Part shown: piece after piece, positions 38,413 through 62,064 of the stretch
Layout of the letters: the number at the start of each line of letters is the position of its first letter
Numbering within the stretch: position 1 is the first letter of the stretch
Assembly: GCF_022758235.1 (NCBI RefSeq)
Contig: NZ_JALEBG010000001.1
Location: forward strand, 62,001-126,000
From: Pontibacter liquoris
GTDB lineage: Bacteria > Bacteroidota > Bacteroidia > Cytophagales > Hymenobacteraceae
Direction: 5' to 3'
Length of the DNA: 64,000 nt
Translations under genes and position numbers: made by a program
Notes under the pieces: model-generated
The model's database searches: none
The model's input: only the letters and a program-made list of their open reading frames with translations
What the model was told of the DNA's origin: nothing

Positions 38413-39798
38413 CTACAGCAGGTCGCTTACCAGGGCAGGCGCTATGCCCAGCAAGATGGTAAACACTGTGATAAAGATCAGCACAAAAGAAGCAAAGCTG
38501 CCCATGCGGATCTTCTCTACATTACCAGCCGGATGCATATACATGGCGATCACAACTTTAAAGTAATAGTAAATACCTACTGCTGCCATCAGCACTGCCA
38601 CTACCACCAGCCACATCAGGCTGGCATCCTGCACCACGGCCGAGAAGATAAACAGCTTGCCGAAGAAACCGGCCGTTAGCGGAATACCGCCCAGTGAGCA
38701 CATGGCAACCGTCATGGCAAAAGCCAGCAGCGGGTTTGTTTTGCCCAGGCCATTAAAGGCTTCAAAGGTTTCGTTGCCCTCGCGCTGGGCGGCTACATAC
38801 TTGAGCACGGCAAAAGCCGCCACCGTGGCCAGCGAGTAAGAAAGCGCGTACAACATAATGGAGGCGTCTGAGCGCTCATTAAAGGCAACCAGGGCCATCA
38901 GCAGGTAACCTGCATGCGATACGCTGGAGTAAGCCAGCATACGCTTGGCGTTGTGCTGCACCACTGCGCCGATGTTGCCCACCACCAGGGTAAGCACCGT
39001 AATGGCGATCAGGGTCGGGAACCAGGCGGCATACGATGCGGCAAACGCCGCTGCCATCAGTTTATAGAAAGCGGCCACACCGGCAATCTTCACCACCGTA
39101 GACATGAACCCGGTGAAAAGGGTAGGGGTGCCTTCGTATACATCGGGTGCCCAGAAGTGGAACGGCGCAGCAGATATTTTAAAGGAGATACCAATAACGA
39201 TGAGCAGCAAGCCCAGCGTGAACATGGCCGTCATGGTACCATCGTTTGTGGCGGCTGCAGCGGCAATGTCGGTCAGGTAAAAAGAACCGGTAGCGCCGTA
39301 GATCAGCACCATGCCAAACAGCAGGAAGCCCGTAAAGAAAGAGCCCATCAGAAAATACTTCAGCGCCGCTTCGTTCGAGCGGATGCGCTGTTTATCGCTG
39401 CCGGCCAGCACATACATGGCAATAGAAAGGATCTCGATGCCCACAAACAGCATCAGCAGGTTCTCGTAGCTCACCATCATCACGGCGCCTACCAGCGAGA
39501 AAAGCAGCAGCGAGTAGAACTCGGCCAGGTTCTCGTTTTCTTCTTCTACATAACGTTGCGAGAAAGGGATCAGCAGCAACGTGGTTAGCACCATAATGCC
39601 GGTAAACGCCACCGCATAGTTATCGATGGTGAGCATGTGGTTAAAGTAGCTCTGCGCATCGTTCCAGCGAAGCAGGTTGGCGCCAAACACGACCGCCAGA
39701 AACAGCAGTGCCAGGGGCAGCAGTATCCTTTTAGACTTCATAAACCCAACAAAGAGGTTAATGACGCCGAAAACGGATAGAAGGATGATTGAAGTCAT
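38413..39798 (-). CDS. nuoN: NADH-quinone oxidoreductase subunit N
   Basis: 461 residues, about fourteen membrane segments of the antiporter-like fold. LKYFLMGSFFTGFLLFGMVLIYG and RMLAYSSVSHAGYLLMAL are signature helices. Forms one of the proton-pumping arms of complex I. Last gene of the nuo block; the start is 36 bp after the nuoM stop. Confidence 0.95.
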   Translation of the reverse strand: MTSIILLSVFGVINLFVGFMKSKRILLPLALLFLAVVFGANLLRWNDAQSYFNHMLTIDNYAVAFTGIMVLTTLLLIPFSQRYVEEENENLAEFYSLLLFSLVGAVMMVSYENLLMLFVGIEILSIAMYVLAGSDKQRIRSNEAALKYFLMGSFFTGFLLFGMVLIYGATGSFYLTDIAAAAATNDGTMTAMFTLGLLLIVIGISFKISAAPFHFWAPDVYEGTPTLFTGFMSTVVKIAGVAAFYKLMAAAFAASYAAWFPTLIAITVLTLVVGNIGAVVQHNAKRMLAYSSVSHAGYLLMALVAFNERSDASIMLYALSYSLATVAAFAVLKYVAAQREGNETFEAFNGLGKTNPLLAFAMTVAMCSLGGIPLTAGFFGKLFIFSAVVQDASLMWLVVVAVLMAAVGIYYYFKVVIAMYMHPAGNVEKIRMGSFASFVLIFITVFTILLGIAPALVSDLL

Positions 39799-39834
39799 GT
39801 CGTTTTATTCCTGTAAAACTCGTTATTCTTATTC

Positions 39835-41298
39835 TTAGCGTTTGATCACGTTCAGCAGCGCATGTATAGCCGGCTCCGAAAAGGTCAGAAAAGTATTCGG
39901 GAACAAACCGATCCAGAACACCATTACAACCAGCGGAATCAGCACGGCTTTCTCGTTAAAGGTCAGGTCCGCGAACACCTCGGTGTGGGAGGACCGTGAG
40001 CCGAACATCACGCCCTGGAACATGCGCAGCATGTATACCGCCCCCAGTATAATGGTAAGGCCGGCAATAGCGCCCATCCAGCCGTTGAACTGGTAAACAC
40101 CCGACAGCAGCAGAAACTCGCCCACGAAACCGCTGGTGAGCGGCAGCGCGATAGAGGCCAGCAATAGCACCATAAAATTGATCGACAGCGCCGGCGTGGT
40201 TTGCGTAATGCCACCCAGGCTGGTAATATCGCGGGTTTGGGTGCGGTTATAGATGATGTCGATGATAAAGAACAGGCCGGTAACCACCACGCCGTGGCTC
40301 AGCATCTGGATCACGCCGCCCTGCAACCCCTGCTCGTTCAGGGTAAAGATACCTGCCGAGATAAGGCCTACGTGGGCGATGGAAGAGTAAGCAACCAGGC
40401 GCTTCAGGTCGCGCTGGCGGATGGCAATGATGGAAGCGTACACGATGCCGATGATAGAAAGGATCAGCACCACTTCGTCCCACTGGCTCACGCCTAGCGG
40501 CACCACCGGCAACAGCCAGCGCAGCACACCATAGATACCCATTTTGAGCATAATGCCCGACAGTAGCATGGTGCCTGGCGTCGGCGACTCGGTGTAGGTA
40601 TCGGGCTGCCAGGTATGGAACGGGAACACCGGCATTTTAATGGCAAAGGCAATGAAGAGGAACCAGAAGATCCAGCTTTGTGAGCTGCTGCTCAGGGCCA
40701 GATCATAAAAGGCGGTCAGGCTGGCAGAGTGCGGCGAGGTTGCCGTTGCACCCGTCTGGAAGTATAAGTATACAAAAGCAGCCAGCATCAGCAGCGAGCC
40801 GAAGATGGTGTACACAAAGAACTTAAAGGTAACCGGCACCCGGTTGGCCCCGCCCCAGATAGCGCAGATAAAGTAGATCGGAATGAGGGCAAGCTCCCAG
40901 AAGAAGTAAAATAGGAACGCATCCAGGGCCACAAACACGCCCAGCAGGCCCGTTTGCATAAACAGGATGAGTGCGTAGAAAACGTTCGGGTTTTTATACG
41001 TGTGCTTGAAAGACGACAGGATGATGAGCGGCACCAGGAACGTGGTCAGCAGTACCATCAGCAGGCTGATGCCATCGATGCCGATAATAAAGCCGATGCC
41101 GGCGCTGGGCACCCACGGAATATTCAGGGCATATTGAATGCTGCCACTCTCGGTGTTAAAGGTTGAGGTAGCAAAAAGCGCCAGGGCAAATTCCACGAGC
41201 GCTGCGATAAAAGCCACTCTCTTGGCACTTTGTCCTTTTATCAGCAGCACGAGCAGTGCGGCCAGGGCAGGCCAGAAAAGTAATAGAGCTGTAATCAT
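39835..41298 (-). CDS. nuoM: NADH-quinone oxidoreductase subunit M
   Basis: 487 residues, antiporter-like membrane subunit. WELALIPIYFICAIWGG, FPFHTWQPDTYTESPTPGTMLLSGIMLKMGIYG and KRLVAYSSIAHVGLISAGIF carry the conserved Glu, Lys and His of the proton path. The start lies 12 bp after the nuoL stop. Confidence 0.96.
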   Translation of the reverse strand: MITALLLFWPALAALLVLLIKGQSAKRVAFIAALVEFALALFATSTFNTESGSIQYALNIPWVPSAGIGFIIGIDGISLLMVLLTTFLVPLIILSSFKHTYKNPNVFYALILFMQTGLLGVFVALDAFLFYFFWELALIPIYFICAIWGGANRVPVTFKFFVYTIFGSLLMLAAFVYLYFQTGATATSPHSASLTAFYDLALSSSSQSWIFWFLFIAFAIKMPVFPFHTWQPDTYTESPTPGTMLLSGIMLKMGIYGVLRWLLPVVPLGVSQWDEVVLILSIIGIVYASIIAIRQRDLKRLVAYSSIAHVGLISAGIFTLNEQGLQGGVIQMLSHGVVVTGLFFIIDIIYNRTQTRDITSLGGITQTTPALSINFMVLLLASIALPLTSGFVGEFLLLSGVYQFNGWMGAIAGLTIILGAVYMLRMFQGVMFGSRSSHTEVFADLTFNEKAVLIPLVVMVFWIGLFPNTFLTFSEPAIHALLNVIKR

Positions 41299-41310
41299 CT
41301 TCTAAGAACC

Positions 41311-43269
41311 TTATCCGATAAAGAAGTTTAAAAATAGAATCAGGGCGATGCTGCACACCATTACCAGCAGGTAAAAGCTGATGGCCCCGCTCTGTGCGTA
41401 GCGCAGCGTGCGGCCGCTAAGTATAACAAACTTACCCACGCCGTTCACAAGGCCATCTACCAGCACCACGTCCACAAAGCGGTACACAGTATGGGAGAGC
41501 CACATTACCGGGCGCACGATGAGCGTGTTGTACAGTTCATCGATATAATATTTGTTGTAAAGCAGGTTGTGCACAGGAGCCAGGTGGGCACCTTCTTCGG
41601 CGGGCACTTCCTCTTTTTTGATGTACATAAAGTAGGCAATGATAATGGCCAGCACAGCTACACCCACCGAAACCGCCATCAGAATGAATTCCAGTTCGTG
41701 TGAGATAGCGCCGGTTTCGAAGGCTGCCGGGTTAATGCCCCGCGCATAAGTATAAAGCGGTGCTAGGTACTCGCCCAACACGTGCTTGGCACCAAATACC
41801 TCCGGAATGCCCAGGAAGCCACCAACGGTAGCAAGTATGGCCAGCACGATCAACGGAATGGTCATCACGGCAGGCGATTCGTGCAGGTGATGTTTCTGCT
41901 CTGCTGTGCCGCGGAACTTGCCAAAGAAGGTAAGGAACAGGGCCCGGAACATGTAGAAGGCCGTCATAAAGGAGGCCAGCACCCCGATGCCCCACAACAC
42001 CTTGTTGTGCTCGAATACGTGGGCCAGCAACTCGTCTTTAGAGAAGAAACCGGCAAACGGCGGAATACCGGAAATAGCCAGCGTACCGATCAGGAAGGTG
42101 ATAAAGGTGATAGGAAGTACTTTGCGCAGACCGCCCATGCGGCGCATGTCCTGCTCGTTGCTCATGGCGTGGATCACAGAACCGGCACCCAGGAAGAGCA
42201 GCGCTTTAAAGAATGCGTGCGTGAGCACGTGGAACATCGAAGAAGAGAAGGCCATCACACCCAGCGCCAGAAACATATAGCCTAGCTGCGATACGGTAGA
42301 ATAAGCCAGCACCTTTTTGATATCGTTCTGCACCAAGCCGATGGTGGCAGCCAGAAGCGCGGTAGCCGCACCGATAATAGCGATCACATCCAGGGTGGTA
42401 GGAGCAAGTATAAAGAGCACGTTCGAGCGGATCACCATGTAGATACCGGCCGTTACCATGGTAGCAGCGTGGATCAGGGCCGAAACCGGCGTAGGACCCG
42501 CCATCGCATCAGGCAGCCAGGTAAACAAAGGGATCTGCGCGCTTTTACCCATTGCCCCGATAAAGAGGAACATAGTAATGGCGATCATCACGGGTGTGTC
42601 CAGGCCGGTCATTTTGCTGGCCTCGGCAAACACCTGCGGGTAACTCACGCTGCCGAACGTAATAAAGATCAGGAAAATGCCCAGCAGAAAGCCCAGGTCC
42701 CCGATACGGTTCATGATAAAGGCTTTCTTGGCGGCGTTGTTATAGTTGGTGTTCTTGTTCCAGAAGCCGATGAGCAGGTAGGAGCAAAGGCCTACGCCTT
42801 CCCAGCCCACAAACATCATTACATAGTTGGAGCCCATCACCAGCAGCAGCATCGAGAACATGAACAGGTTCAGGAACGAGAAGAACTTGCCGAAGCCTTC
42901 GTCGTGGCTCATGTAGCCGGCCGAGTAAAGGTGGATCAGAAAACCAATGCCTGTCACCATCAGCAGCATGAGCAGCGTGAGCTGGTCAATGAGGAAAGAG
43001 AAACCGATATGCAGGGTGCCCGCCGAGATCCAGTTGTAGTAATCTACGGTATAAGGCTGGCTGCCATTGGCTTTGAAATCAAGGAACAGGTAGATGGAAA
43101 TCAGGAAGGAGGCCAGCACGGTGGCGCAGCCAATCAGTCCTACCAGGCCTTTGGCAATTTTGCGGTTGCCCAGCCCATTCACGATAAAGCCAAGCAGTGG
43201 CAGCAACGGAATAAGCAAACAGAGCAGTGCCATGTCCTGGTTTATGCTGGGCATTACTATCTCTTGCAT
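41311..43269 (-). CDS. nuoL: NADH-quinone oxidoreductase subunit L
   Basis: 652 residues, the distal antiporter-like subunit with a long C-terminal extension that holds the lateral helix region. Signature regions are VGWEGVGLCSYLLIGFW, IPLFTWLPDAMAGPTPVSALIHAATMVTAG, and KKVLAYSTVSQLGYMFLALG. The C-terminal 200 residues (from about 450) carry further segments and a charged linker. All pump residues visible in the first 400 residues are present. Confidence 0.97.
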   Translation of the reverse strand: MQEIVMPSINQDMALLCLLIPLLPLLGFIVNGLGNRKIAKGLVGLIGCATVLASFLISIYLFLDFKANGSQPYTVDYYNWISAGTLHIGFSFLIDQLTLLMLLMVTGIGFLIHLYSAGYMSHDEGFGKFFSFLNLFMFSMLLLVMGSNYVMMFVGWEGVGLCSYLLIGFWNKNTNYNNAAKKAFIMNRIGDLGFLLGIFLIFITFGSVSYPQVFAEASKMTGLDTPVMIAITMFLFIGAMGKSAQIPLFTWLPDAMAGPTPVSALIHAATMVTAGIYMVIRSNVLFILAPTTLDVIAIIGAATALLAATIGLVQNDIKKVLAYSTVSQLGYMFLALGVMAFSSSMFHVLTHAFFKALLFLGAGSVIHAMSNEQDMRRMGGLRKVLPITFITFLIGTLAISGIPPFAGFFSKDELLAHVFEHNKVLWGIGVLASFMTAFYMFRALFLTFFGKFRGTAEQKHHLHESPAVMTIPLIVLAILATVGGFLGIPEVFGAKHVLGEYLAPLYTYARGINPAAFETGAISHELEFILMAVSVGVAVLAIIIAYFMYIKKEEVPAEEGAHLAPVHNLLYNKYYIDELYNTLIVRPVMWLSHTVYRFVDVVLVDGLVNGVGKFVILSGRTLRYAQSGAISFYLLVMVCSIALILFLNFFIG

Positions 43270-43315
43270 CTGGTTTTAGAGTTTAAGAAGGTATTCAGGG
43301 AGAAAAATAAAGGGA

Positions 43316-43645
43316 CTACCATTTGAGTTCGTTCAGCAGCTGCACGTCAGTGGAGCGTGTATTGCGGTAGGTCATCACGATAATGGCCAGCCCCACACAT
43401 ACTTCAGCGGCCGCCACAGCCATGATAAAGAAAACGAATACCTGTCCGCTGGAATCAGCGCGGTAAGAGGCAATGGCGGTAAGCAGCAGGTTTACGGCGT
43501 TGAGCATCAGCTCCACACACATAAAAATGACGATCGCATTGCGGCGGGTCAATACGCCGATCACCCCGATAGCAAACAGGGCCGTGCTGAAGTATAAATA
43601 GTAGTTAAGCGGAATAGTTCTGATAATATCAGGTATCTGGTTCAT
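43316..43645 (-). CDS. nuoK: NADH-quinone oxidoreductase subunit K
   Basis: 109 residues with three membrane segments. The conserved Glu residues are in [15 protein letters not shown] and [15 protein letters not shown]. It is the first gene of the distal nuo half. About 1.9 kb, including a plus-strand gene, separates it from nuoJ, so it cannot be simply co-transcribed with nuoA-J. A TAACTTTG box precedes it. Confidence 0.95.
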
Positions 43646-43697
43646 GGTAAGTGGGCCTGAACGTATTAGGAGTTATAACAATCCAAAAATCAAGTCG

Positions 43698-43705
43698 CAA
43701 AGTTA
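43698..43705 (-). promoter_or_regulatory. Candidate -7 box (TAACTTTG) for nuoK-N
   Basis: An exact TAnnTTTG match on the minus strand, identical to the sod box, about 53 nt upstream of the nuoK start. No good TTTG -33 box at 19-21 nt. Confidence 0.4.
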
Positions 43706-43746
43706 TCCCCATTTTTTAAAAATCCATAACATATTTCCTATTCTTC

Positions 43747-43950
43747 TTAGCTGTTTCGATAACCGGGCTGCTTGTTTTGGTACAATTCGACAAATGCAGT
43801 GGCAATGCCGAAATAGTCCGCTTTAAGCTGCAGTAAATCCAGTCCGGCCGCACCTGCAGCCTGCTTGCCGCTATCTCCGGTGCAGGCGGCCACAGCAGCA
43901 TCAGGGTTGGTGGGGCATGTTCGGGCGCGCCAAACTTTACGTATGACGGT
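43747..43950 (-). other. Open frame with coding-like text but no ATG (possible gene remnant)
   Basis: Between stops at 43953 and 43747 the minus strand reads 67 codons with natural composition, including CPTNPDAAVAACTGDSGK and LDLLQLKADYFGIATAFVEL. There is no ATG; a GTG at 43893 would give 48 residues. It may be the tail of a gene lost when the nuo operon was split, or a short gene with a GTG start. No family recognised. Confidence 0.3.
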
Positions 43951-43971
43951 TTATACTTCTAAAGAACTTCT

Positions 43972-45006
43972 ATGCGCTTGTTTAAAACGATGGCTATACT
44001 CTTCTCTGCGGCTTCGCTGGCAGGCTGCCAGCAAAAATCAACGCCCGTTTCTTCTCTCCCCGCGGAGGATATGGAAGCGGTGATACAGAAAAAGGTCTTC
44101 TACCAGGATCTGCCTTCCGGTTCAGGCATCGAGGCAGCCGGAACGGGTTTTTATGTGGTGGGCGATGACTCGCCTTATTTATACTTGCTGGATGCCAGCT
44201 ATACGATTGTGGAGAAAACCGCCTTGTTCGATACGACCAGCTTTGCCAGCGGCCGCATCCCCAAGCTGGAAAAGGCAGACCTGGAAAGTATGGCCCACTT
44301 CCGCTACAAAGACGCCGATTACCTGCTGCTGCTGGGGTCGGGTTCTGCGGCCACGCGCAACAAGGCGTTTATCGTAAAGCAATCTGCCCCGGCGGAGCAA
44401 GTACGGGCCCTGGATATCAGTCCTTTTTATACTTTCCTGCAAAAGATACTGGCCCGCCATAGCAGCGAAGTGCTCAACATTGAAGGCCTGGCTGCCGACG
44501 ATGCGCATTTTTACCTCTTGCAGCGCCGGCTGGCTCCTGGCGTAAACACCATTTTCCGATTCGACAAAACAAAATTGCTCGAGTACCTGATGGAAGGGCG
44601 CGCGTTGCCCGATGCAGCGACCTTCTACATCCGTCTGCCGCAGCTAGGGCCTTATGAGGCCGGCTTTTCGGGTGCCTGTATCTACGATGACAAGCTGTTC
44701 TTTTCCGCTTCTATTGAGCAGTCGCTTAACCCGGTGGATGACGGGGACGTGCTAGGCAGTTTTATCGGTTTTATCCCGCTTTATACTTTAGGAAGAGCCG
44801 GCAATGCCACCGAACCCCTTTCGGTTACAGCCTTGCCGCTCCACCATGCCGACGGCTCGCTGTATACCGGCAAAGCAGAATCGGTGGTAGTGCAGGAAAA
44901 AGACGAGAACGGCGGCTATAAAGCCCTGCTGGTGTCTGATGATGATCTGGGCCACACTGAACTACTGGAGGTAACGCTGCAACCGAAGACTAAAGTGAAG
45001 GAATAA
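43972..45006 (+). CDS. Lipoprotein of unknown function inserted in the nuo block
   Basis: 344 residues. Signal with lipobox LAGC. The mature protein is beta-rich and resembles a secreted propeller-like hypothetical of Bacteroidota (possibly DUF6929): GFYVVGDDSPYLYLLDASY, MAHFRYKDADYLLLLGSGS, NIEGLAADDAHFYLLQRRL and FSGACIYDDKLFFSASIEQSLNPVDD. It runs opposite to the nuo genes and sits between nuoK and nuoJ. No link to complex I is seen. Function unknown. Confidence 0.65.
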   Translation: MRLFKTMAILFSAASLAGCQQKSTPVSSLPAEDMEAVIQKKVFYQDLPSGSGIEAAGTGFYVVGDDSPYLYLLDASYTIVEKTALFDTTSFASGRIPKLEKADLESMAHFRYKDADYLLLLGSGSAATRNKAFIVKQSAPAEQVRALDISPFYTFLQKILARHSSEVLNIEGLAADDAHFYLLQRRLAPGVNTIFRFDKTKLLEYLMEGRALPDAATFYIRLPQLGPYEAGFSGACIYDDKLFFSASIEQSLNPVDDGDVLGSFIGFIPLYTLGRAGNATEPLSVTALPLHHADGSLYTGKAESVVVQEKDENGGYKALLVSDDDLGHTELLEVTLQPKTKVKE

Positions 45007-45573
45007 GTATGAATAAAGTAGAAGGAATAACGGAAAGGCTTAATCCTTTCCTTGTCATCCTAGAAGGATTTTGTGGGCAAGTTGCGGAGGCTCCTCTATA
45101 CTTCAATTTGCAAAGCAAGAGCAAGCTTTTCGCCTCGCCGGCGGGGCCTTCCTTTTCTCCTTGATGGGAGTAGGGGCCCTCGATAAGAGAAAAGTAAGCA
45201 AAAGAATCAAGACGATTTTGAATCGAGGGCCCCTACCCCCACTCGCTGAACGCTCAAACAAAAAATCGTCAAATACTGCACCTGGCTCAAGTGTTCGCTT
45301 GAACGGAGGTAAGCCACACTTTTTGTTAAACGCTATGGCCTTCGCTCGCCTCTGGCGAGTGTGCGAAATTTCGTGGCGTCCCGCCATGTACTGACATAAA
45401 CAAATCAAATTGGCCGGAGGCCGCCGAATAGCTCACACTCGCCGGAGGCGAGCGAGGGCAGAAACAAAAAAGCCGGCACATCCGCGCCGGCTTTATACTT
45501 TATATGATATTGACCAAGCATCCGCTTGTGCCTTGTTCTATCAACTAAATTGATTCTTTGTAGCGGCTCGTTT
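45007..45573. repeat. Repeat-rich spacer between the inserted lipoprotein and nuoJ
   Basis: No convincing gene. It contains a GTCATCCT-type element near 45053 (compare 48818-48893), a perfect 15-bp inverted repeat 45170-45184/45222-45236 (GTAGGGGCCCTCGAT), and a 21-bp inverted repeat with one mismatch, 45343-45363/45434-45454, whose arms are themselves hairpins (CTCGCC...GGCGAG). It also holds two copies of the CAAGCGTCCGCTTG-like palindrome (45288-45301, 45515-45528). It looks like a composite of dispersed intergenic elements. Confidence 0.6.
45465..45494 (-). terminator. Terminator after nuoJ
   Basis: AAAGCCGGC (45469-45477) and GCCGGCTTT (45486-45494) with an 8-nt loop. On the minus strand a CTTTTTTG run follows. 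It lies about 80 nt past the nuoJ stop and would end the nuoA-J transcript. Confidence 0.75.
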
Positions 45574-46089
45574 TTAGAAGTGGCGTTCGCCTACTTCTCT
45601 CTTGCCCAGCATAACGGCACCCACCATGGCTACCAGGAACAGCACCGAGGCCAGCTCAAAAGGCAGCAGGTATTGGGTAAACAGCACGGCGCCCAGGTTC
45701 TCCACCATACCTGTCTGCGAGGTAAAGGTGTCGGCATCGTAGCCCGCTACGGTTGTGTCTTTTAACGCTGCGAACATCACCACGAAAAGCAGGCCACCAG
45801 CAATAGTACCGGCAAACTTGCTCAGCGTAGAAGCTTTTACAGCAGTATCCGAATGCTTATTCATGTTCAGGAACATGATCACGAACAGGAAAAGCACCAT
45901 AATGGCGCCGGCATATACGATGATGTTCACGGCCGCCAGGAACTGCGCATTCAGCAGAATATAATGGCCCGAGATGGTAAAGAACGTAATGATCAGGAAC
46001 AGCACGCTATGCACCGGGTTTTTGGAAATTACCACCATCAGGGCGCACAGCAGCGTAAGGGAAGCAAGAAAGAAAAAAAGACTCTCCAT
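45574..46089 (-). CDS. nuoJ: NADH-quinone oxidoreductase subunit J
   Basis: 171 residues with five membrane segments; NPVHSVLFLIITFFTISGHYILLNAQFLAAVNIIVYAGAIMVLFLFVIM is the conserved core, given here as its start NPVHSVLFLI and end VYAGAIMVLFLFVIM. Part of the membrane arm near the quinone channel. Four bases separate it from nuoI. Confidence 0.94.
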   Translation of the reverse strand: MESLFFFLASLTLLCALMVVISKNPVHSVLFLIITFFTISGHYILLNAQFLAAVNIIVYAGAIMVLFLFVIMFLNMNKHSDTAVKASTLSKFAGTIAGGLLFVVMFAALKDTTVAGYDADTFTSQTGMVENLGAVLFTQYLLPFELASVLFLVAMVGAVMLGKREVGERHF

Positions 46090-46093
46090 CAGA

Positions 46094-46603
46094 TTATTTT
46101 GTTTCAGTGGTTTTCAGAGGCTCTACCAGGCGGTCTTTGCCATAAATGAACTCGTCGCGCTCGTAACGGGCCGGCGCAAGTTTATCGTCTTGTAAGAAAA
46201 TGGCAGCTTTCGGGCAGGCTTCTTCACAAAGGCCGCAAAAGATGCAGCGCAGCATGTTCACCTCGTATGTCACCGCATACTTCTCTTCGCGGTACAGGTG
46301 CTCTTCGCCTTTCACGCGCTCGCCGGCCGTCATGGTAATGGCTTCGGCAGGGCAGGCCACGGCACAAAGGCCGCAGGCGGTGCAACGCTCGGCGCCATTC
46401 TCATCGCGCTTCAGCACGTGCAGGCCACGCCATACATCGCTGCGCTCGCGTGTTTGCTCAGGGTACTGTACCGTTGCTTTTTTCTTGAAGAAGTGTTTTA
46501 TGGTAATGCCAAGCCCCTGGGCAATAGCAGGCAGGTACGCGCGCTCCGCGAACGTCATCTCCTTCTTCTCCAGTTGCTTTCTTCTATTAGATAGTGGTTC
46601 CAT
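46094..46603 (-). CDS. nuoI: NADH-quinone oxidoreductase subunit I
   Basis: 169 residues with two [4Fe-4S] motifs, CTACGLCAVACP and CIFCGLCEEACP (clusters N6a and N6b), linking the peripheral arm to the quinone site. The N-terminal helix (GLGITIKHFFKKKATVQYPEQ) is typical. Translation may start at 46603 or at the second Met (MTFAERAYLP, 46558). Confidence 0.95.
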   Translation of the reverse strand: MEPLSNRRKQLEKKEMTFAERAYLPAIAQGLGITIKHFFKKKATVQYPEQTRERSDVWRGLHVLKRDENGAERCTACGLCAVACPAEAITMTAGERVKGEEHLYREEKYAVTYEVNMLRCIFCGLCEEACPKAAIFLQDDKLAPARYERDEFIYGKDRLVEPLKTTETK

Positions 46604-46677
46604 TTCTTTCTGCTTATGAGTGTTGGCGTGTGTCTGATCTTTTAACAGCGATCAGGGGGCCAACATTCAAGTTTAAG

Positions 46678-47733
46678 TTAAAATAAGTAATCTTTTAGCA
46701 GAACCCCGCCGCCTGTCAGGATAATGTTCAGGATAGCTAGCGGGATAAGGATCTGCCAGCCCAGCTTCATGAGTTGGTCGTAGCGGAAACGCGGAAGCGT
46801 CCAGCGAACCCACATGAAGAAGAAAATGAACAGGAATATCTTGGTAAACATTGCGGCTACGCCTACCAGCGTTACCACGTTGTTGCCCAGTACCGGGTCC
46901 GTAAAGGCCTGGCGCAGGTTGTCCATGAACGGGAAGTTGTAAGCGCCAAAGTATAGCGTCGACATCACAGCTGAAGCTACAAAGATGTTGATATACTCAG
47001 CAAACAGGTACATGCCCAGTTTCATGGAGCCATACTCGGTATGGTAGCCACCGATCAGTTCGGCCTCCGATTCCGGTAAGTCGAACGGCGTACGGTTTGT
47101 TTCGGCAAAGGAGCACACCAGGAAAATAATGAAGCCCAGCGGCTGGTACCAGATGTTCCAGTTAAAACCGTGCTGCTGTTCTGCTATTTCACGCAACGAC
47201 AGCGAGCCGCTCAGCATCAGCACTGCAATCAGCGTAAGGCCCATGGCCAGTTCGTAGCTGATGTTCTGCGATGCCGCCCGGATAGCGCCCAGCAGCGAGA
47301 ATTTGTTGTTCGAAGCCCAGCCCCCGATCATCAGGCCATAAACGCCCAGCGACACGACGCCAAACACATACAACACGCCAATGTTTACTTCTATGGCCTG
47401 CAGGTATATTTCGCGGCCACCGATCAGCAGCATGTCGCCAAATGGAATCACTGCGCTCGACATAGTCGCTACCAGCATGGCAATGCCGGGCCCGATGATG
47501 AACAGCGCCTTGTTTGCTTTGGCTGGGATAAAGTCCTCTTTAAAGAACAGCTTGCCGGCATCAGCCAGCGGCTGCATCAAACCGGCAGGGCCGGCGCGGT
47601 TCGGGCCTACGCGGTCCTGGATAAAGGCGGCTATTTTACGCTCAAAGTAGGTAGAGTACGTCGCTATCAGCAGTGTGATACCGAAAATCACCAGAATGTA
47701 AATCCCTTTGTATAGTAGGTCTACTGACTCCAT
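46678..47733 (-). CDS. nuoH: NADH-quinone oxidoreductase subunit H
   Basis: 351 residues, eight membrane segments forming the quinone entry chamber. Signatures: ERKIAAFIQDRVGPNRAGP, AETNRTPFDLPESEAELIGGYHTEY and RWTLPRFRYDQLMKLGWQILIP. The charged loop residues of the E-channel are present. Starts three bases after the nuoG stop. Confidence 0.97.
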   Translation of the reverse strand: MESVDLLYKGIYILVIFGITLLIATYSTYFERKIAAFIQDRVGPNRAGPAGLMQPLADAGKLFFKEDFIPAKANKALFIIGPGIAMLVATMSSAVIPFGDMLLIGGREIYLQAIEVNIGVLYVFGVVSLGVYGLMIGGWASNNKFSLLGAIRAASQNISYELAMGLTLIAVLMLSGSLSLREIAEQQHGFNWNIWYQPLGFIIFLVCSFAETNRTPFDLPESEAELIGGYHTEYGSMKLGMYLFAEYINIFVASAVMSTLYFGAYNFPFMDNLRQAFTDPVLGNNVVTLVGVAAMFTKIFLFIFFFMWVRWTLPRFRYDQLMKLGWQILIPLAILNIILTGGGVLLKDYLF

Positions 47734-47736
47734 ATG

Positions 47737-48717
47737 TTATTCCTGCGGCAGGCTTTTCTTGGTAGATACTGGTAAATTAGGTACGATCGGTACGTTGATC
47801 ACCGGCAGCTCGTAATGGTTAGCCGAGATAACCGAATGCCGGTCGATGTGGCGCGGACCTTCGATGGTCCAGTCGCTTACCTCCTTTTTATCAAAGCGGC
47901 AGGTGTTACAGATAAACTCTTCCACCTCGTTGTACTGGTCCTTGCGGGCTGTTACCCGAAGTACGGCATCGCCGCGTGTCCAGAGCGTTACTTTACCAGA
48001 GCAGGTCGGGCAGTCGCGGTGCGCATCCAGCGGCTTTGTGAACCATACGCGGTTTTTAAAGCGCCAGGTTTTGTCTGTCAGCGCGCCCACCGGACACACA
48101 TCAATCACGTTGCCGGAGAACTCGTTATCCACAATGTTCTCGATATATGTTCCTATCTCGGCCGCATCGCCACGACCCAGCACACCATGCACACGCTCAG
48201 GCGTCAGTTGGTCGGCGGTATACACGCAGCGGTAGCACAGGATGCAGCGCGTCATGTGCAGCTGGATGTATGGGCCCAGATCCACTTTGTTAAAGGTGCG
48301 GCGCTCTTCCTCGTAGCGGGTGGCGCTCACGCCATGCTCGTAGGAGAGGTCCTGCAGGTTGCACTCGCCGGCCTGGTCGCAGATAGGGCAATCCAGGGGG
48401 TGGTTGATGAGTAGCATTTCCACGATGCCTTTGCGGGCGTTGAGCACTTCTTCGTTGGTGGTGTTCTCCACTACCATGCCGTCCTGCACCTGCGTGATGC
48501 ACGAGGCAACCAGCTTGGGCATAGGGCGGGTGTCTTTGGCAGAGCCCTGTGTTACTTTTACCAGGCACACGCGGCATTTGCCACCGCTGCCTTTCAGCGG
48601 TCCGTAATAACACATGGCGGGCGGCACTACTTTGCCTCCTATTTTTCTAGCGGCCTGCAGGATGGTAGTTCCATCTTCTACCTCTATCTCGATGCCGTCT
48701 ATCGTTACTTTAGCCAT
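47737..48717 (-). CDS. nuoG: NADH-quinone oxidoreductase subunit G, short form
   Basis: 326 residues: a [2Fe-2S] ferredoxin-like domain (CYYGPLKGSGGKCRVC), the HPLDCPICDQAGEC His-Cys3 cluster N5, then CILCYRC...VCPVGAL for N4, and a C-terminal Cys4 (CPTC...CNTC). The molybdopterin-like domain of longer NuoG proteins (about 700-900 residues) is absent. The short form is usual in Bacteroidota and keeps all clusters needed for electron flow, so this is not a truncation. Confidence 0.9.
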   Translation of the reverse strand: MAKVTIDGIEIEVEDGTTILQAARKIGGKVVPPAMCYYGPLKGSGGKCRVCLVKVTQGSAKDTRPMPKLVASCITQVQDGMVVENTTNEEVLNARKGIVEMLLINHPLDCPICDQAGECNLQDLSYEHGVSATRYEEERRTFNKVDLGPYIQLHMTRCILCYRCVYTADQLTPERVHGVLGRGDAAEIGTYIENIVDNEFSGNVIDVCPVGALTDKTWRFKNRVWFTKPLDAHRDCPTCSGKVTLWTRGDAVLRVTARKDQYNEVEEFICNTCRFDKKEVSDWTIEGPRHIDRHSVISANHYELPVINVPIVPNLPVSTKKSLPQE

Positions 48718-48817
48718 TTTAATTATCGTTATTCGTTATTCGTTGTTCGTTATTGGCAAACACTCCAAACGATTTAAGCTATACTTTCCTTTTCAGGATA
48801 TTTATACTTTCATTTTT

Positions 48818-48893
48818 TGTCATCCTGAAAGGATCTTGGTTGAAGGGAACTTAGGCCTTTGCTATTATCCCACAAGTTTCTTTCAGAATGACA
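48818..48893. repeat. Intergenic inverted repeat, TGTCATcCTGAAAG type
   Basis: Arms 48818-48831 and 48880-48893 (TGTCATCCTGAAAG / CTTTCAGAATGACA, one mismatch) enclose a 48-nt segment. A related GTCATCCTAGAAGGATTTTG segment is at about 45053. Located in the 192-bp gap between nuoF and nuoG. Confidence 0.6.
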
Positions 48894-48909
48894 AAAGTGT
48901 ATTTATTTT

Positions 48910-50256
48910 TTAGGCTACAATTTCCGCCAGCTGGCCACGGTAAACTGCGCCCGGTAAAGTTGCCTCTTTCGGGTGCTTGATGTGCCACTCGAATTCGTCG
49001 CGGAAGTGGCGGATAGCAGCCGCTACCGGCCATGCGGCCGCATCGCCCAGCGGACAGATCGTGTTACCCTCAATCTGCTTGGCTACGCTTACCAGCAGGT
49101 CGATGTCCTGCTGATGGCCGTGGCCATACTCGATGCGGTGCAGCACTTTCTCCATCCAGCCGGTACCCTCACGGCATGGGCTACACTGGCCACACGACTC
49201 ATGATGATAGAAGCGGGCATAGTTCCACGTGTTACGCACAATGCACTGGTCCTCATCAAACACGATAAACGCGCCCGAGCCCATCATAGAGCCTGTCACA
49301 AAACCGCCGTCAGCCAGCGATTCGTACGTCATCAGGCGGTCTTCGCCGGCAGCGGTCTTCAGTATAAGGTTCGCAGGCAGGATCGGAACGGAAGAACCTC
49401 CCGGCACCACGGCCTTCAGCTGCTTGCCCTTCCAGATGCCACCGCAGTACTGGTCTGAGTAGATAAATTCTTCTACCGGCACGCCCAACTCGATCTCAAA
49501 TACGCCCGGGTTGTTGATGTTACCGCTGGCCGAGATCAGTTTAGTGCCCGTGCTGCGGCCAATGCCTATTTTGGCATACTCGGCGCCGGTGTTGTTCACG
49601 ATCCACGGCACCGCGCAGATCGTTTCCACGTTGTTTACCACCGTAGGGCTCTGGAACAAACCTTTCACTGCCGGGAACGGCGGCTTGTTGCGCGGGTTGC
49701 CGCGTTTGCCCTCCAACGATTCCAGCAGGGCTGTTTCCTCGCCGCAAATGTAGGCGCCCCCTCCGGGCGCAACATGCAGGTCCAGGCTATAGCCGGAGCC
49801 CAGTATGTTTTTGCCCAGTAGACCGGCTGCGTATGCTTCCGCAATCGCTTTTTCAAGTATGCGCAGCACAAACATAAGCTCGCCGCGGATGTAGATATAG
49901 GAGGTGTTGGCTCCCAGCGCATAGCTCGAGGTGATCATTCCTTCGATTAGCGCGTGCGGGTTGTGCTCCATAAACCAGCGGTCCTTAAAGGTGCCCGGCT
50001 CCGACTCGTCGGCATTGCAAACGAGGTAGCGCGGAATACCTTCGGGCTTAGCCAAAAAGCTCCATTTCATACCTGTCGGGAAGCCGGCGCCCCCACGACC
50101 ACGCAGGCCGGAGGTTTTTACCTCTTCCACCACCTCATCCGGAGTCATCGTTTTCAGGGCTTTCTCTACCGAGCGGTAGCCGCCCTGCTTACGGTATACT
50201 TCCAGCGTTTCGATGCCGGGTACGTTGATATGTTCGGTTAGTATTTTAAGTCCCAT
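48910..50256 (-). CDS. nuoF: NADH-quinone oxidoreductase subunit F
   Basis: 448 residues. Binds NADH and FMN: GLRGRGGAGFPTGMKWSF and GAGAYICGEETALLESLEG-type loops (here GGGAYICGEETALLES). The C-terminal ESCGQCSPCREG plus a distal Cys (NTICPLGDAA) hold cluster N3. The site where electrons enter complex I. Confidence 0.97.
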   Translation of the reverse strand: MGLKILTEHINVPGIETLEVYRKQGGYRSVEKALKTMTPDEVVEEVKTSGLRGRGGAGFPTGMKWSFLAKPEGIPRYLVCNADESEPGTFKDRWFMEHNPHALIEGMITSSYALGANTSYIYIRGELMFVLRILEKAIAEAYAAGLLGKNILGSGYSLDLHVAPGGGAYICGEETALLESLEGKRGNPRNKPPFPAVKGLFQSPTVVNNVETICAVPWIVNNTGAEYAKIGIGRSTGTKLISASGNINNPGVFEIELGVPVEEFIYSDQYCGGIWKGKQLKAVVPGGSSVPILPANLILKTAAGEDRLMTYESLADGGFVTGSMMGSGAFIVFDEDQCIVRNTWNYARFYHHESCGQCSPCREGTGWMEKVLHRIEYGHGHQQDIDLLVSVAKQIEGNTICPLGDAAAWPVAAAIRHFRDEFEWHIKHPKEATLPGAVYRGQLAEIVA

Positions 50257-50312
50257 TGTAGCAGGATGTATGTATGGCCGCTTTTATACTTAAGGCTGCC
50301 GGTTTGCTATAC

Positions 50313-50344
50313 TTGACAAAGGATTTTTTGACAAAGGACAAAAG
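50313..50344. repeat. GACAAAGGA-type spacer repeat (second locus)
   Basis: TTGACAAAGGA twice within 32 bp in the nuoE-nuoF gap, the same wording as at 1735-1766. Confidence 0.4.
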
Positions 50345-50398
50345 AGATAAAGGATTAGGTCTTTTGTCTGCCTGTCTTTTGTCACAAAGTCCAAAAAC

Positions 50399-50932
50399 TT
50401 ACTTCTGATGATAAGGCGTTTCAACCGGGGTGTTGCGCATCATCTCCAGGAACTCGTCTACCCGCTGTTCGCTGTCGATGTTCTCGTAGAATTTTTCACG
50501 CACCTGCAACATCGGCCCTGATCCGCAGGAAGCCAGGCATTCTACCGGCTTAAGCGTAAACATGCCGTCAGTGCTTGTTTCGCCTTCTTCGATGTTGAGC
50601 TTCTGCTTCAGCGTTTCGATCAGCTGGTCGGCGCCACGCAGGCAGCAAGGGCCCGTGCGGCATACTTCCAGCACGTGCTTGCCAACCGGCTTAAGGTTGA
50701 ACATGGTATAGAACGTGGCTACCTCGTATACTTCGATGGGCTGGATGTGCAGGATCTCGGCAATGGTGTCCATTGCTTCGGGGCTTACCCAGCCGCCCAG
50801 CTCAGCCTGCGCAACGTGCAGGATCGGGAGCAGGGCAGACTTCTGCCGGCCCTCGGGGTAATGGCTGATGTAGCGCTGCATTTCGGCCATGGCCGCATCA
50901 GAAAACGTCACTTTGTTTATAGTCTCTGCCAT
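50399..50932 (-). CDS. nuoE: NADH-quinone oxidoreductase subunit E
   Basis: 177 residues from the ATG at 50932 (MAETINKVTF); the longer frame to 51016 would overlap nuoD. The thioredoxin-like [2Fe-2S] fold has VCRTGPCCLRGA and ECLASCGSGP (cluster N1a). The N-terminal helix bundle (YPEGRQKSALLPILHVAQAELGG) contacts NuoF. Confidence 0.95.
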   Translation of the reverse strand: MAETINKVTFSDAAMAEMQRYISHYPEGRQKSALLPILHVAQAELGGWVSPEAMDTIAEILHIQPIEVYEVATFYTMFNLKPVGKHVLEVCRTGPCCLRGADQLIETLKQKLNIEEGETSTDGMFTLKPVECLASCGSGPMLQVREKFYENIDSEQRVDEFLEMMRNTPVETPYHQK

Positions 50933-50993
50933 TTTTAGATTGTCATCGATCCTCTTTGCAGGGAGCAATGTGAAATGGTATATAAATGAATGT

Positions 50994-52238
50994 TTAAGCG
51001 TCCAGCTCGCCGGCAATTACGTTCAGGCTGCTCAGCGTCAGGATCGCATCCGCCAGCTGGCCGCCTTTGATCATCTCGGTGTAAGCCTGGTAGTAAATAA
51101 AGCAAGGGCGACGGAAGTGCAAACGGTATGGTGTGCGGCCACCGTCAGAGATCAGGTAAAAGCCCAGCTCGCCATTGCCACCTTCCACGCTGTGGTATAC
51201 TTCGCCCACCGGAATATCAGCCTCGCCCATCACAATTTTAAAGTGATAGATCAGGGCTTCCATGCTGCGGTATACTTCCTGCTTTGGCGGCAGGTAAAAG
51301 TGCGGCGCATCGGCGTGGTAAGAGCCTTCGGGCAGGTTGTTGTAGGCCTGCTCAATGATCTTTAAGCTTTGCCATACTTCCTCGTTGCGCACCAGGAAGC
51401 GGTCATAAGTATCGCCTTTGGAGCCTACCGGTATTTCGAACTCGAAGTCCTCGTAAGACGAGTAAGGGTTCATTACGCGCACGTCGTAGTCTACGCCGGT
51501 TGCCCGCAGGTTAGGGCCCGTAAAGCCATAGCTCAGTGCACGCTCGGCCGAGATAGCACCTACGTCAGTTGTTCTGTCGATGAAGATCCGGTTGCGGGTA
51601 AACATCTTCTCAAACTCGGCCCATACTTTAGGGAAGCGCTTGAGGAACTCGCCGATCAGGTGCAGGGCTTTGGGCGAAAGATCGCGCTCCATGCCCCCGA
51701 TGCGACCCATGTTGGTGGTCAATCGGGCGCCGCATACTTCCTCGTAGATATCGTAAATGTGCTCGCGCTCCTGCATCACGTATAGGAAGCCGGTAAAGGC
51801 GCCGGAGTCCACCCCCAGGATCGAGTTACAGATCAGGTGGTCAGAGATACGGGCCAGCTCCATCATGATCACGCGGATGTACTGCGCACGCTTCGGAATG
51901 GTGATGCCGAGCAGCTTTTCTACTGTCATATGGTAGCCCATGTTGTTGATAGGCGACGAGCAGTAGTTCATGCGGTCGGTGAGCGGCGTGATCTGGTAGA
52001 ACGGCCGGCGTTCCGCTATTTTCTCGAAGGCCCGGTGAATGTAGCCGATGGTGGGCACTGCGTCCACGATCTTCTCACCGTCCATCTGCAGGATATTCTG
52101 GAAAATACCATGCGTGGCCGGGTGGGTGGGGCCCAGGTTCAGCGTGGTAAGGGGCCGCTCCTCCGTCAGGGCTAGGCCATGTTTCAGGCGGAACTGCTCC
52201 ATTTCGGTAAGCGCTGCGGTTTTATTTTCAGTAGCCAT
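50994..52238 (-). CDS. nuoD: NADH-quinone oxidoreductase subunit D
   Basis: 414 residues, the 49-kDa-type subunit lining the quinone pocket. [15 protein letters not shown] contains the quinone-site His, and [28 protein letters not shown] and RAPCF-like tail (here [13 protein letters not shown]) are typical. It is a separate gene, not fused to nuoC as in enterobacteria. Confidence 0.97.
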
Positions 52239-52302
52239 GCTATTGTGTCCTTTGTTAGCTGCCGGTTATACCTGTTCTAAAGTAGGGCGGCAGTAAATTG
52301 GC

Positions 52303-52809
52303 TTAACGCCCGAAAAACGTATCTATCTTATCTTCCCTTGTCTGGTCTTCCAGCGGGTATTGCTTCAGCATTGGGTGGTACTCCATCTCTTCGATGTTCA
52401 GGATCCGGGTCAGGTTCGGATGGCCTGTAAAGATAATGCCATAGAAGTCAAATGCCTCGCGCTCCATCCAGTTGGCGGCTGCGTAGAGGTTGGTCAGCGT
52501 AGGCATCACCGGGTCGCTGATAGGGAAGAACACCTTGATGCGCACACGGTAATTATAGCGCAGGCTGTGCAGCTGGTACATCATGCACAGCTCCTTGTCC
52601 TTCTGGTCAGGGTAATGGATACCGCACATGGTGGTGAGGAATTGGATCTGCAGGTCCGCATCATCGCGCAGATATTGGATCAGATCGATGATGGTTTCGC
52701 GGGTGGTCTGAAACGTCATAATGCCATCCGGGTTCACTGCATCCCAGATGTTATCGATCCCAAACTTATCGATGATCTTGCCGAGTACGTTTTCGTTCGT
52801 AAGCTCCAT
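52303..52809 (-). CDS. nuoC: NADH-quinone oxidoreductase subunit C
   Basis: 168 residues, the 30-kDa-type subunit. The signature is EREAFDFYGIIFTGHPNLTRIL near the C terminus. Three bases separate it from nuoB, so translation is probably coupled. Confidence 0.95.
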   Translation of the reverse strand: MELTNENVLGKIIDKFGIDNIWDAVNPDGIMTFQTTRETIIDLIQYLRDDADLQIQFLTTMCGIHYPDQKDKELCMMYQLHSLRYNYRVRIKVFFPISDPVMPTLTNLYAAANWMEREAFDFYGIIFTGHPNLTRILNIEEMEYHPMLKQYPLEDQTREDKIDTFFGR

Positions 52810-52812
52810 TGC

Positions 52813-53367
52813 TTATTTAATGTTGTAAGAGGCTAAAAGGGCCTGGTATTCCGGTGAGTTGCGGCGGCGCAGCGATTCGTTTGCTGCCAGGTCCTGCACG
52901 CGCATCAGCCCGTCCAGGATCTGTTCAGGGCGAGGCGGGCAGCCCGGCACGTACACGTCTACCGGTACTACACGATCGATGCCCTGCAGCACGGAGTAAG
53001 TATCGAAAATGCCGCCGGAAGAGGCACAGGCACCCACGGCAATCACCCAGCGCGGCTCGGCCATCTGCTCATACACCTGCTTTACCACAGGGCCCATCTT
53101 TTTGGCAATGGTACCCATCACCATCAGGATGTCGGCCTGGCGCGGCGAGAAGCTGGGACGCTCCGAACCGAAACGGGAAATATCATAGTTGGCTCCCATG
53201 GTAGCCATGTACTCAATACCGCAGCAGGAGGTAGCAAACGGCAACGGCCACAGCGAGTGCTTGCGGGCCAGCCCGATTACTTTCTCGAAAGAGGTGGCAA
53301 AAAAGCCGGCACCGGATATGCCATCGGGTGCGTCTACTAATTTGATATCGTTATTTGATTCGCTCAT
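52813..53367 (-). CDS. nuoB: NADH-quinone oxidoreductase subunit B
   Basis: 184 residues. Carries cluster N2 next to quinone: FATSCCGIEYMA (tandem Cys), VGACASSGG, and VPGCPPRPEQILDGL give the four Cys ligands. Complete family length. Confidence 0.97.
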   Translation of the reverse strand: MSESNNDIKLVDAPDGISGAGFFATSFEKVIGLARKHSLWPLPFATSCCGIEYMATMGANYDISRFGSERPSFSPRQADILMVMGTIAKKMGPVVKQVYEQMAEPRWVIAVGACASSGGIFDTYSVLQGIDRVVPVDVYVPGCPPRPEQILDGLMRVQDLAANESLRRRNSPEYQALLASYNIK

Positions 53368-53449
53368 TTTAAGGATAGTTTGATTTCACAAGTGCAGGCG
53401 CCTGGTGCCCAATGTTTCAACACCAGCTGACTTGTAAAAGTTTAAAGTC

Positions 53450-53833
53450 CTATTCCCACTTCAGGATGCCTTTTTTGATCACATAGAAGAAACCGGCCAG
53501 CAACAGGCCCATGAACACGAGCATCTGCAAAAAGCCGTCCAGTCCGAAGCTCCGGAAGTTTACCGCCCAGGGGTACATAAAGATGATCTCGACATCAAAC
53601 AGTACAAAAAGGATGGCCGTCATGAAGTACTTATAGGAGATAGGCGTACGGGCATCACCCACCGACTCGATACCACTTTCCCAGGCGGCGCCTTTTACGG
53701 CACTGTTGCGCTTTGGCCCCAGCAGGTGTGTGAGCGTGAGTGCAAAAATCACAAAGCCAAGGGCGGCCATAAACTGAATCAGGATTGGCAGGTAGTCTGA
53801 TGGCACATACTGCTGATTTACAGCTGGTTCCAT
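53450..53833 (-). CDS. nuoA: NADH-quinone oxidoreductase subunit A
   Basis: 127 residues from the ATG at 53833 (MEPAVNQQY); the longer frame to 53893 would run across the promoter boxes. Three membrane segments; KGAAWESGIESVGDARTPISYKYFMTAILFVLFDVEIIFMYPWAV is the conserved core, with its ends KGAAWESGIES and FDVEIIFMYPWAV. First gene of the nuo block. Confidence 0.95.
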   Translation of the reverse strand: MEPAVNQQYVPSDYLPILIQFMAALGFVIFALTLTHLLGPKRNSAVKGAAWESGIESVGDARTPISYKYFMTAILFVLFDVEIIFMYPWAVNFRSFGLDGFLQMLVFMGLLLAGFFYVIKKGILKWE

Positions 53834-53863: not shown

Positions 53864-53894
53864 CAAAATTAGGGATAAATCATCAACAATCAAA
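53864..53894 (-). promoter_or_regulatory. Promoter of the nuo operon
   Basis: On the minus strand TTTG (53894-53891), a 19-nt spacer, then TAATTTTG (53871-53864). Both boxes and the spacing fit the Bacteroidota consensus. The -7 box lies about 31 nt before the nuoA start. An AAGTATA heptamer overlaps the -33 box. Confidence 0.65.
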
Positions 53895-61984: not shown

Positions 61985-62064
61985 CAGGGGAACTGTTGGA
62001 TGGCTATACTTGCTGCCTGGTTATTTTCTGCGTGCGTGCAGGTGGCGGCCTGACCGGCAAGTAT

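Follow-up and report, generated by a model that had tools for sequence, protein, structure and literature searches.

The nuo locus of Pontibacter liquoris

The window analysed here, a stretch of 64,000 nucleotides from Pontibacter liquoris (Hymenobacteraceae, Cytophagales; positions 62,001 to 126,000 of contig NZ_JALEBG010000001.1), carries the nuo genes for complex I in two blocks, nuoA-J (53833-45574) and nuoK-N (43645-38413), all of them on the minus strand according to open reading frames (ORFs) and hidden Markov model (HMM) matches. A plus-strand gene of the DUF6929 family separates nuoJ from nuoK, with a putative terminator on the nuoJ side and a promoter-like box on the nuoK side. Comparison of this junction with that of related genomes makes it likely that the two blocks meet at a seam between two transcription units, which would predate the insertion of the DUF6929 gene and would later have become a recurrent break point. 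The features at the junction are:

45574-53833, minus strand: nuoA-nuoJ, proposed upstream complex I transcription unit (ORFs and best NCBIfam matches)
38413-43645, minus strand: nuoK-nuoN, proposed downstream complex I transcription unit (ORFs and NCBIfam)
45574-46089, minus strand: nuoJ (Pfam Oxidored_q3, 7.6e-43, and NCBIfam)
43316-43645, minus strand: nuoK (Pfam Oxidored_q2, 4.2e-30, and NCBIfam)
45469-45494, minus strand: putative intrinsic terminator after nuoJ (11 bp stem and T tail, -19.5 kcal/mol, z -2.86)
43698-43728, minus strand: putative nuoK promoter (-33-like TATG at 43725-43728, N19, -7 box TAACTTTG at 43698-43705)
43972-45006, plus strand: DUF6929 (PF22000) gene for a putative lipoprotein with a propeller-like predicted fold, probably relocated into the nuo locus (Pfam)
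about 45120-45300, no strand: dispersed palindromic repeat, occupying no fewer than 20 genomic sites, this one among them and two only partial
45338-45459, no strand: long imperfect palindrome with 49 nt arms (80%), pieces of which recur elsewhere in the genome
43750-43920, minus strand: open frame of 57 codons with a stop at its end, a "possible gene remnant" (ORF)

The remaining nuo genes, assigned by ORF and NCBIfam, and a further promoter candidate are:

53864-53894, minus strand: putative nuoA promoter TTTG-N19-TAATTTTG (-33 at 53891-53894, -7 at 53864-53871; consensus as given in PMC7366714)
53450-53833, minus strand: nuoA
52813-53367, minus strand: nuoB
52303-52809, minus strand: nuoC
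50994-52238, minus strand: nuoD
50399-50944, minus strand: nuoE
48910-50256, minus strand: nuoF
47737-48717, minus strand: nuoG
46678-47733, minus strand: nuoH
46094-46603, minus strand: nuoI
41311-43269, minus strand: nuoL
39835-41298, minus strand: nuoM
38413-39798, minus strand: nuoN

An earlier note on this DNA, made from the sequence, had described an opposite-strand gene interrupting the nuo genes between nuoJ and nuoK, a repeat-rich spacer, a box before nuoK and a terminator at 45465-45494. All of these were recovered: the interrupting gene is that of DUF6929, the spacer (45007-45573) carries the dispersed palindromic repeat and a second long hairpin, the box is TAACTTTG, and the terminator lies within a few bases of where it had been placed.

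The arrangement extends across Pontibacter and Botryobacter, which are together referred to as the genus in the following. In 48 of its 50 genomes, nuoJ, the opposite-strand DUF6929 gene and nuoK follow each other on one contig (read directly from loci in 43 cases and from coordinates in five, G011, G015, G016, G026 and G029), and no counterexample was encountered; the two other genomes have contig breaks, with nuoJ on another contig and DUF6929 still beside nuoK. A species-specific insertion or an assembly artefact is ruled out by this recurrence. The distance between nuoJ and nuoK amounts to 1356-2605 bp in 47 genomes and to 10,858 bp in one. A named collection of 80 loci around nuoK comprises 17 loci from Pontibacter/Botryobacter, four from Adhaeribacter, six from Rufibacter, 32 from Hymenobacter (including three Hymenobacter metagenome-assembled genomes, MAGs, and one Hymenobacteraceae MAG), 15 from the Spirosoma group, three from other Cytophagales and three others; among the loci read overall, L031-L060 duplicate the genomes of L001-L030. 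An opposite-strand DUF6929 gene adjoins nuoK in 17/17 named loci of the genus, two of which have no nuoJ on the short remaining stretch of contig, and in none of the 63 other named loci.

The nuo genes were named after their best HMM match. Of these, nuoA, nuoC, nuoG and nuoJ stayed under the curated cut-offs of the NCBIfam models listed, and nuoJ is far over its Pfam cut-off; for nuoA and nuoE, we picked internal ATG codons as starts. NuoG is short (326 aa), and its match to the NuoG model spans just 1-260 of 606 positions, so that the C-terminal part of the protein is either missing or encoded elsewhere. Two more tightly linked nuoK/nuoJ-like pairs occur in the same genome (G000:C1:1318591-1319417 and 3153599-3154392), with 29 and 47 bp between the matched ends, a within-genome contrast to the open junction, and probably belong to other complex I-like or antiporter/hydrogenase clusters.

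Putative signals on either side of the junction

In the window, nuoJ is followed by a stem with a T run that is more stable than its shuffled counterparts. With its symmetrical A/T ends, it could serve the convergent DUF6929 gene as well. By a strict scan, nuoJ is followed by such a terminator in 28 of 42 genomes of the genus (one of 43 loci being lost for lack of room), in 7/14 loci of Adhaeribacter, Rufibacter and g24 and in 9/11 of Hymenobacter, while a looser scan over 200 nt detected a hairpin with a T tail in 34/43 genus genomes and 11/14 loci of the former three. The strict scan gave nothing after nuoH, nuoI and nuoK in the genus (0/27, 0/41 and 0/43), nor after these genes in Adhaeribacter, Rufibacter, g24 and Hymenobacter; nuoL and nuoM, assessable outside the genus only, likewise yielded none. 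Behind DUF6929, 4/42 genus genomes scored. In a contrast set of 34 loci from other families (32 with linked nuoJ and nuoK, plus L122 and L124), strict terminators were found after nuoJ in 2/34, after nuoI in 2/29 and after nuoK in 1/34.

On the other side of the insertion, TAACTTTG lies 60 nt ahead of the nuoK ATG. The Bacteroidota sigma-A promoter consensus consists of a -7 element TAnnTTTG and a -33 element TTTG according to PMC7366714, and TAnnTTTG is also given for sigma-A in PMC9723704. Measured by this consensus, nuoK (TAACTTTG) and nuoA (TAATTTTG) both fit the -7 element; nuoA has TTTG at N19 in addition, whereas nuoK differs with TATG at N19. Among the 47 of 50 genus genomes with a suitable locus, 44 carry the nuoK box 58-66 nt before the ATG, matching TAnnTTTG at a conserved distance, and the three others have TAACTTTA at the same place, with the last base changed. 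TAnnTTTG occurred within the last 150 nt in 3.9% of single-base shuffles, which, like those for the strict terminator scan, preserve base composition only. A scan for sigma70 promoters returned seven sites in 40000-50000 against 7.9 expected and was dropped as uninformative, because hexamers of the E. coli type do not apply here; the Bacteroidota -7 box was used instead.

For comparison between lineages, a strict box (TA[AC]CTTTG, 15-130 nt upstream) was distinguished from the loose box TAnnTTTG; in random 115-nt stretches, these occur in 0.6% and 2.7% of cases, respectively. The strict box precedes nuoK in 16/17 named loci of the genus, 3/4 of Adhaeribacter, 8/8 of Rufibacter (six from the named collection and two others), 2/2 of g24, 29/32 of Hymenobacter and 12/15 of the Spirosoma group, the latter two rising to 31/32 and 15/15 with the loose box. 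The three remaining Cytophagales loci gave 0/3 strict and 2/3 loose, and in the contrast set of other families with linked nuoJ and nuoK, a loose box was present in just 2/32 loci (L204, where it overlaps the end of nuoJ, and L207). Before nuoI, nuoJ and nuoL, no strict box was found wherever assessable in loci of the genus, Adhaeribacter, Rufibacter, g24, Hymenobacter and Spirosoma, the last of which contain no nuoI or nuoJ for this purpose. Upstream of DUF6929, 10/17 loci have a loose and 0/17 a strict box. Judged by eye, the aligned sequence around the nuoK box is similar in Pontibacter, Rufibacter and g24.

Both signals thus occur in relatives that lack DUF6929 at this site. In Adhaeribacter, nuoJ and nuoK are separated by 149-150 bp with no ORF of 60 codons and no DUF6929 inside, yet the looser scan sees a hairpin near nuoJ in 4/4 loci, and 3/4 have the box near nuoK. 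The gap in Rufibacter measures 246-361 bp in 7/8 loci, holds ORFs of 85 codons at most and again no DUF6929.

The junction across the order and the inserted gene

Within the 80 named loci, nuoJ and nuoK lie less than 400 bp apart in 12, at 400-1000 bp in one and more than 1 kb apart in 26; nuoJ is absent despite at least 3 kb of upstream sequence in 37, and four could not be judged. Most other junctions are closed: fewer than 400 bp separate nuoI from nuoJ in 39/39 loci, nuoH from nuoI in 37/39, nuoK from nuoL in 79 (one locus being without nuoL) and nuoM from nuoN in all 56 assessable ones. The junction of nuoL and nuoM is often open too, mainly in Hymenobacter; it is close in 51 loci, at 400-1000 bp in six, absent in 20 and not assessable in two.

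Beyond the family, 70 genomes of the order had nuoK at E <= 1e-22, and after omission of seven without nuoJ at that cut-off, 63 were counted, of which 41 have nuoJ and nuoK linked. Across eight other families, 39 of the 40 genomes sampled have the pair linked, as do 2/7 of family f20. All 16 genomes of f11, which we infer to be the Spirosoma family, are split, eight on the same and eight on different contigs; f20 is split by different contigs in 5/7, and f15 shows one contig difference in 15, bearing in mind that different contigs do not prove a split and that related genomes are not independent events. For five f20 loci, a reading of the sequence directly ahead of nuoK showed no nuoJ. The eight f20 and f11 loci in which nuoJ does not adjoin nuoK all have TAnnTTTG 32-39 nt before nuoK, five of them as TATATTTG. 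Hence, the nuoJ-nuoK junction is a repeated break point, opened also in Hymenobacter, in the Spirosoma group and in part of another family, nearly always with the nuoK box in place.

The Spirosoma group, Hymenobacter and Pontibacter form three separate clades in the nuoL tree, with Rufibacter and Adhaeribacter beside Pontibacter (89/94). The Hymenobacter and Spirosoma loci resemble that of Pontibacter in the split and in the box before nuoK but differ in the genes beside nuoK. In Hymenobacter, an opposite-strand gene for an ECF sigma factor adjoins nuoK in three of four proteins tested (L083, L099, L109), and in the Spirosoma group, an RNase_T exonuclease gene does so in two of two. In 21/32 Hymenobacter loci, nuoJ is not within the up to 8 kb of upstream sequence; in several Hymenobacter genomes (for example G088, G101, G125 and G136), nuoJ and nuoK are found about 80-100 kb apart on opposite strands, which suggests an inversion.

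The inserted gene encodes a protein of 344 aa, whose residues 47-336 match positions 2-286 of the 286-position profile PF22000 (3e-80; 269.9 bits at a gathering cut-off of 27). Its N-terminus is signal-like and followed by LAGC, and an alignment of 18 Pontibacter/Botryobacter proteins shows Cys19 without variation; a lipobox pattern of our own matched 25/63 N-termini, in a set that counts some genomes repeatedly. An AlphaFold model based on 18 sequences is mostly beta (pLDDT 86, pTM 0.85), and the ten best Foldseek matches in the Protein Data Bank (PDB) are mostly beta-propellers such as glutaminyl cyclase, NHL and WD40 structures. With TM scores of 0.36-0.46 by query length, these matches to the predicted fold are too weak to assign a function to DUF6929. 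No link between DUF6929 and complex I was found, and the other genera examined have different neighbours; the gene is therefore probably a bystander at the nuo locus. A literature search limited to open-licence papers found DUF6929 in none.

PF22000 is present in 185 of 204 genomes of the family, in 184 of them over the cut-off and in most as a single match among the matches listed, and it was absent from 14/14 control genomes in a profile search. At the 28 loci examined outside the genus (L153-L180), the neighbours of DUF6929 are mostly common within a genus and different between most genera; g25 and g27 have one neighbour in common (16/16 loci), and the remaining genera differ. The trees used 18 proteins of the genus, and one of four g27 proteins was dropped by the length filter. 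The 18 proteins form a single clade (support 96/95). Given its presence in most family genomes, its usually single copy and this clade, a resident DUF6929 gene probably moved into the nuo locus and was not imported.

The count of the dispersed repeat is a lower bound, with 40 of 92 candidates scored. Neither of two spacer ORFs tested had a Pfam match that passed the cut-off. For the 57-codon frame, a search of 58 other genomes yielded no relative at E <= 0.1, and the loci compared offered none that convinces, with a best outside match of E 0.27. In one genome (G027, locus L183, about 2.1-11.5 kb), roughly 9.5 kb of further DNA lies between nuoJ and DUF6929 and includes a DUF4142 gene as well as one resembling type II NADH dehydrogenases (PF22366).

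The heptamer TATACTT (or AAGTATA) occurs in 100 copies in the window compared with 5.2 expected, for example at 43952, 44180, 44428, 44782 and 45494; 44 of the 100 fall outside any ORF of 100 codons or more, and CATACTT is raised too (45). Genome-wide, TTATACTT was counted 4036 times versus 126 for the reversed pattern. The excess is strong in part of the genus, with up to 7030 copies in G013, 260-790 in many genomes and hardly more than in the control in G026, and was not seen at the loci examined from Adhaeribacter, Rufibacter, Hymenobacter and Spirosoma. Uptake sequences elsewhere are known to act as terminator dyads; for TATACTT, this role was rejected, as inverted pairs are not in excess.

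Proposed order of events and its implications

According to the course of events proposed here, RNA polymerase would stop after nuoJ, at a terminator about 10-85 nt past the gene, and restart before nuoK at a sigma-A-type promoter with its -7 box about 60 nt upstream, so that nuoA-J and nuoK-N would be two transcription units. Pontibacter, Rufibacter, Adhaeribacter and (with TACCTTTG) Hymenobacter would have inherited this seam from their ancestor, in which nuoJ and nuoK were still neighbours. In the ancestor of Pontibacter and Botryobacter, the usually single-copy DUF6929 gene would then have been relocated between terminator and promoter in opposite orientation, and the repeats as well as, in one species, the 9.5 kb of further DNA would have accumulated later in the same spacer. 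As neither nuo unit would transcribe the stretch between the signals, DUF6929 and the repeats could settle there.

The two transcripts that the earlier note had predicted gain sequence support from the terminator in most genus genomes and from the conserved nuoK box. The inserted gene as the cause of the split is not supported: since the box and, in part, the terminator exist in Adhaeribacter and Rufibacter without DUF6929 there, the insertion probably came after the transcription boundary, and cause and effect are probably the reverse of what the note had assumed. It had also held that the same arrangement throughout the order would mark it as ancestral. The exact arrangement is confined to the genus; other lineages of the order also have a break at this junction, so that this possibility is half borne out.

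Several observations weigh against this course of events. The assignment of promoter and terminator function draws on the consensus match and on conservation, and from such comparisons, we infer the two mRNAs, the ancestral states and a single relocation event. At N19 from the nuoK box, the expected -33 TTTG is replaced by TATG in 39/44 genomes, by TTAT in four and by TAGG in one. Strict scans were negative after nuoJ in 14/42 genomes of the genus and 7/14 loci of Adhaeribacter, Rufibacter and g24, and read-through may hence occur. Adhaeribacter locus L079 has no nuoK box, the gap in Rufibacter latericius (L095) extends to 917 bp with an unassigned opposite-strand ORF of 166 codons, and those of g24 (747 and 869 bp) contain ORFs of 138 and 64 codons. 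The strict box also stands before nuoH in 2/2 g24 loci; in the outer loci (two Sphingobacteriaceae and one Bacteroidetes MAG; L122, L124 and L125), it precedes nuoK in 0/3 and nuoJ in 2/3. The box is thus not unique to nuoK in all lineages, and a different lineage may have its boundary at another place, one gene earlier. That the linked state of Adhaeribacter and Rufibacter is ancestral and not re-joined rests on parsimony. Finally, branches are long and deep forks weak in the tree of DUF6929, g23 is not a single clade, and an old transfer of the gene may have taken place.

Among the alternative explanations, a leaky seam is unlikely, although it would account for the 14/42 genus genomes in which the strict scan sees no nuoJ terminator and would suit the short distance of 1.36-2.6 kb between nuoJ and nuoK in 47/48 same-contig genomes. 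Termination would then be partial, long nuoA-N RNAs running antisense through DUF6929 would lower its expression, and the two units would stay partly coupled; the strong terminator of the window (-19.5 kcal/mol) and the hairpin in 34/43 genus genomes speak against it. It is very improbable that the insertion, together with its own flanking DNA, split a single operon and that promoter and terminator arose afterwards or arrived with the gene. Such a course would agree with the nuoK box in 44/47 and the nuoJ terminator in 34/43 (looser scan) of the genus loci, but both signals occur where DUF6929 does not, the box in 3/4 Adhaeribacter, 8/8 Rufibacter and 2/2 g24 loci and the terminator in 7/14 (strict) or 11/14 (looser) loci of these three.

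Conceivably, the physical split could be ancestral to the whole group, with nuoJ and nuoK rejoined in Adhaeribacter and Rufibacter, around which the split Spirosoma group, Hymenobacter and Pontibacter branch in the nuoL tree. Rejoining would, however, have to restore the same neighbours in the same order and orientation, and linkage prevails in 39/40 genomes of the eight other families and persists in 2/7 of f20, which leaves this history little probability. Horizontal acquisition of DUF6929 is equally hard to credit: the long branches of its tree and the neighbours that differ in most genera would fit, but the gene exceeds the cut-off in 184/204 family genomes and 0/14 controls, the genus proteins form one clade, and the two spacer ORFs are without a Pfam match above cut-off, with no search aimed at mobile-element genes. 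A different question is whether the junction marks a functional module boundary, with selection in this group for separate control of the antiporter-like distal pumping arm (NuoK, L, M and N). Separate control could, for example, adjust how much full and how much partial complex is made, and the junction would then have been opened first by regulation and broken afterwards in probably four lineages, instead of being a random weak spot. This idea is unlikely to hold.

The preferred reading, a seam older than the insertion, amounts to ordinary operon evolution that is unusually well resolved. Fragmentation of operons with an internal promoter is a known part of general operon evolution, the "life-cycle of operons". 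The nuo locus is alike in that a contiguous operon appears broken by an opposite-strand gene or a rearrangement while an internal promoter would serve the distal part; it differs in that the order can be inferred, with terminator and promoter first and breaks later, recurrently at the same junction, because related genera preserve an intermediate in which transcription is apparently split and the genes are adjacent. The nuo operon of the E. coli type has the gene order nuoA-N. The order is the same here, with nuoC and nuoD as separate genes, unlike the E. coli type, and with a terminator, an opposite-strand gene and a new putative promoter between nuoJ and nuoK. In open-licence literature, covered by listings and the beginnings of abstracts, nothing relevant on nuo splits or operon evolution was found.

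The loci form a natural series, from linked genes without signals through linked genes with terminator and promoter to broken ones, which bears on whether a transcriptional split precedes the separation of genes. It also calls for caution, as gene order alone is insufficient for concluding that an insertion split the operon. A physiological prediction for Pontibacter is that the electron-input part of complex I and its pumping arm could be expressed apart.

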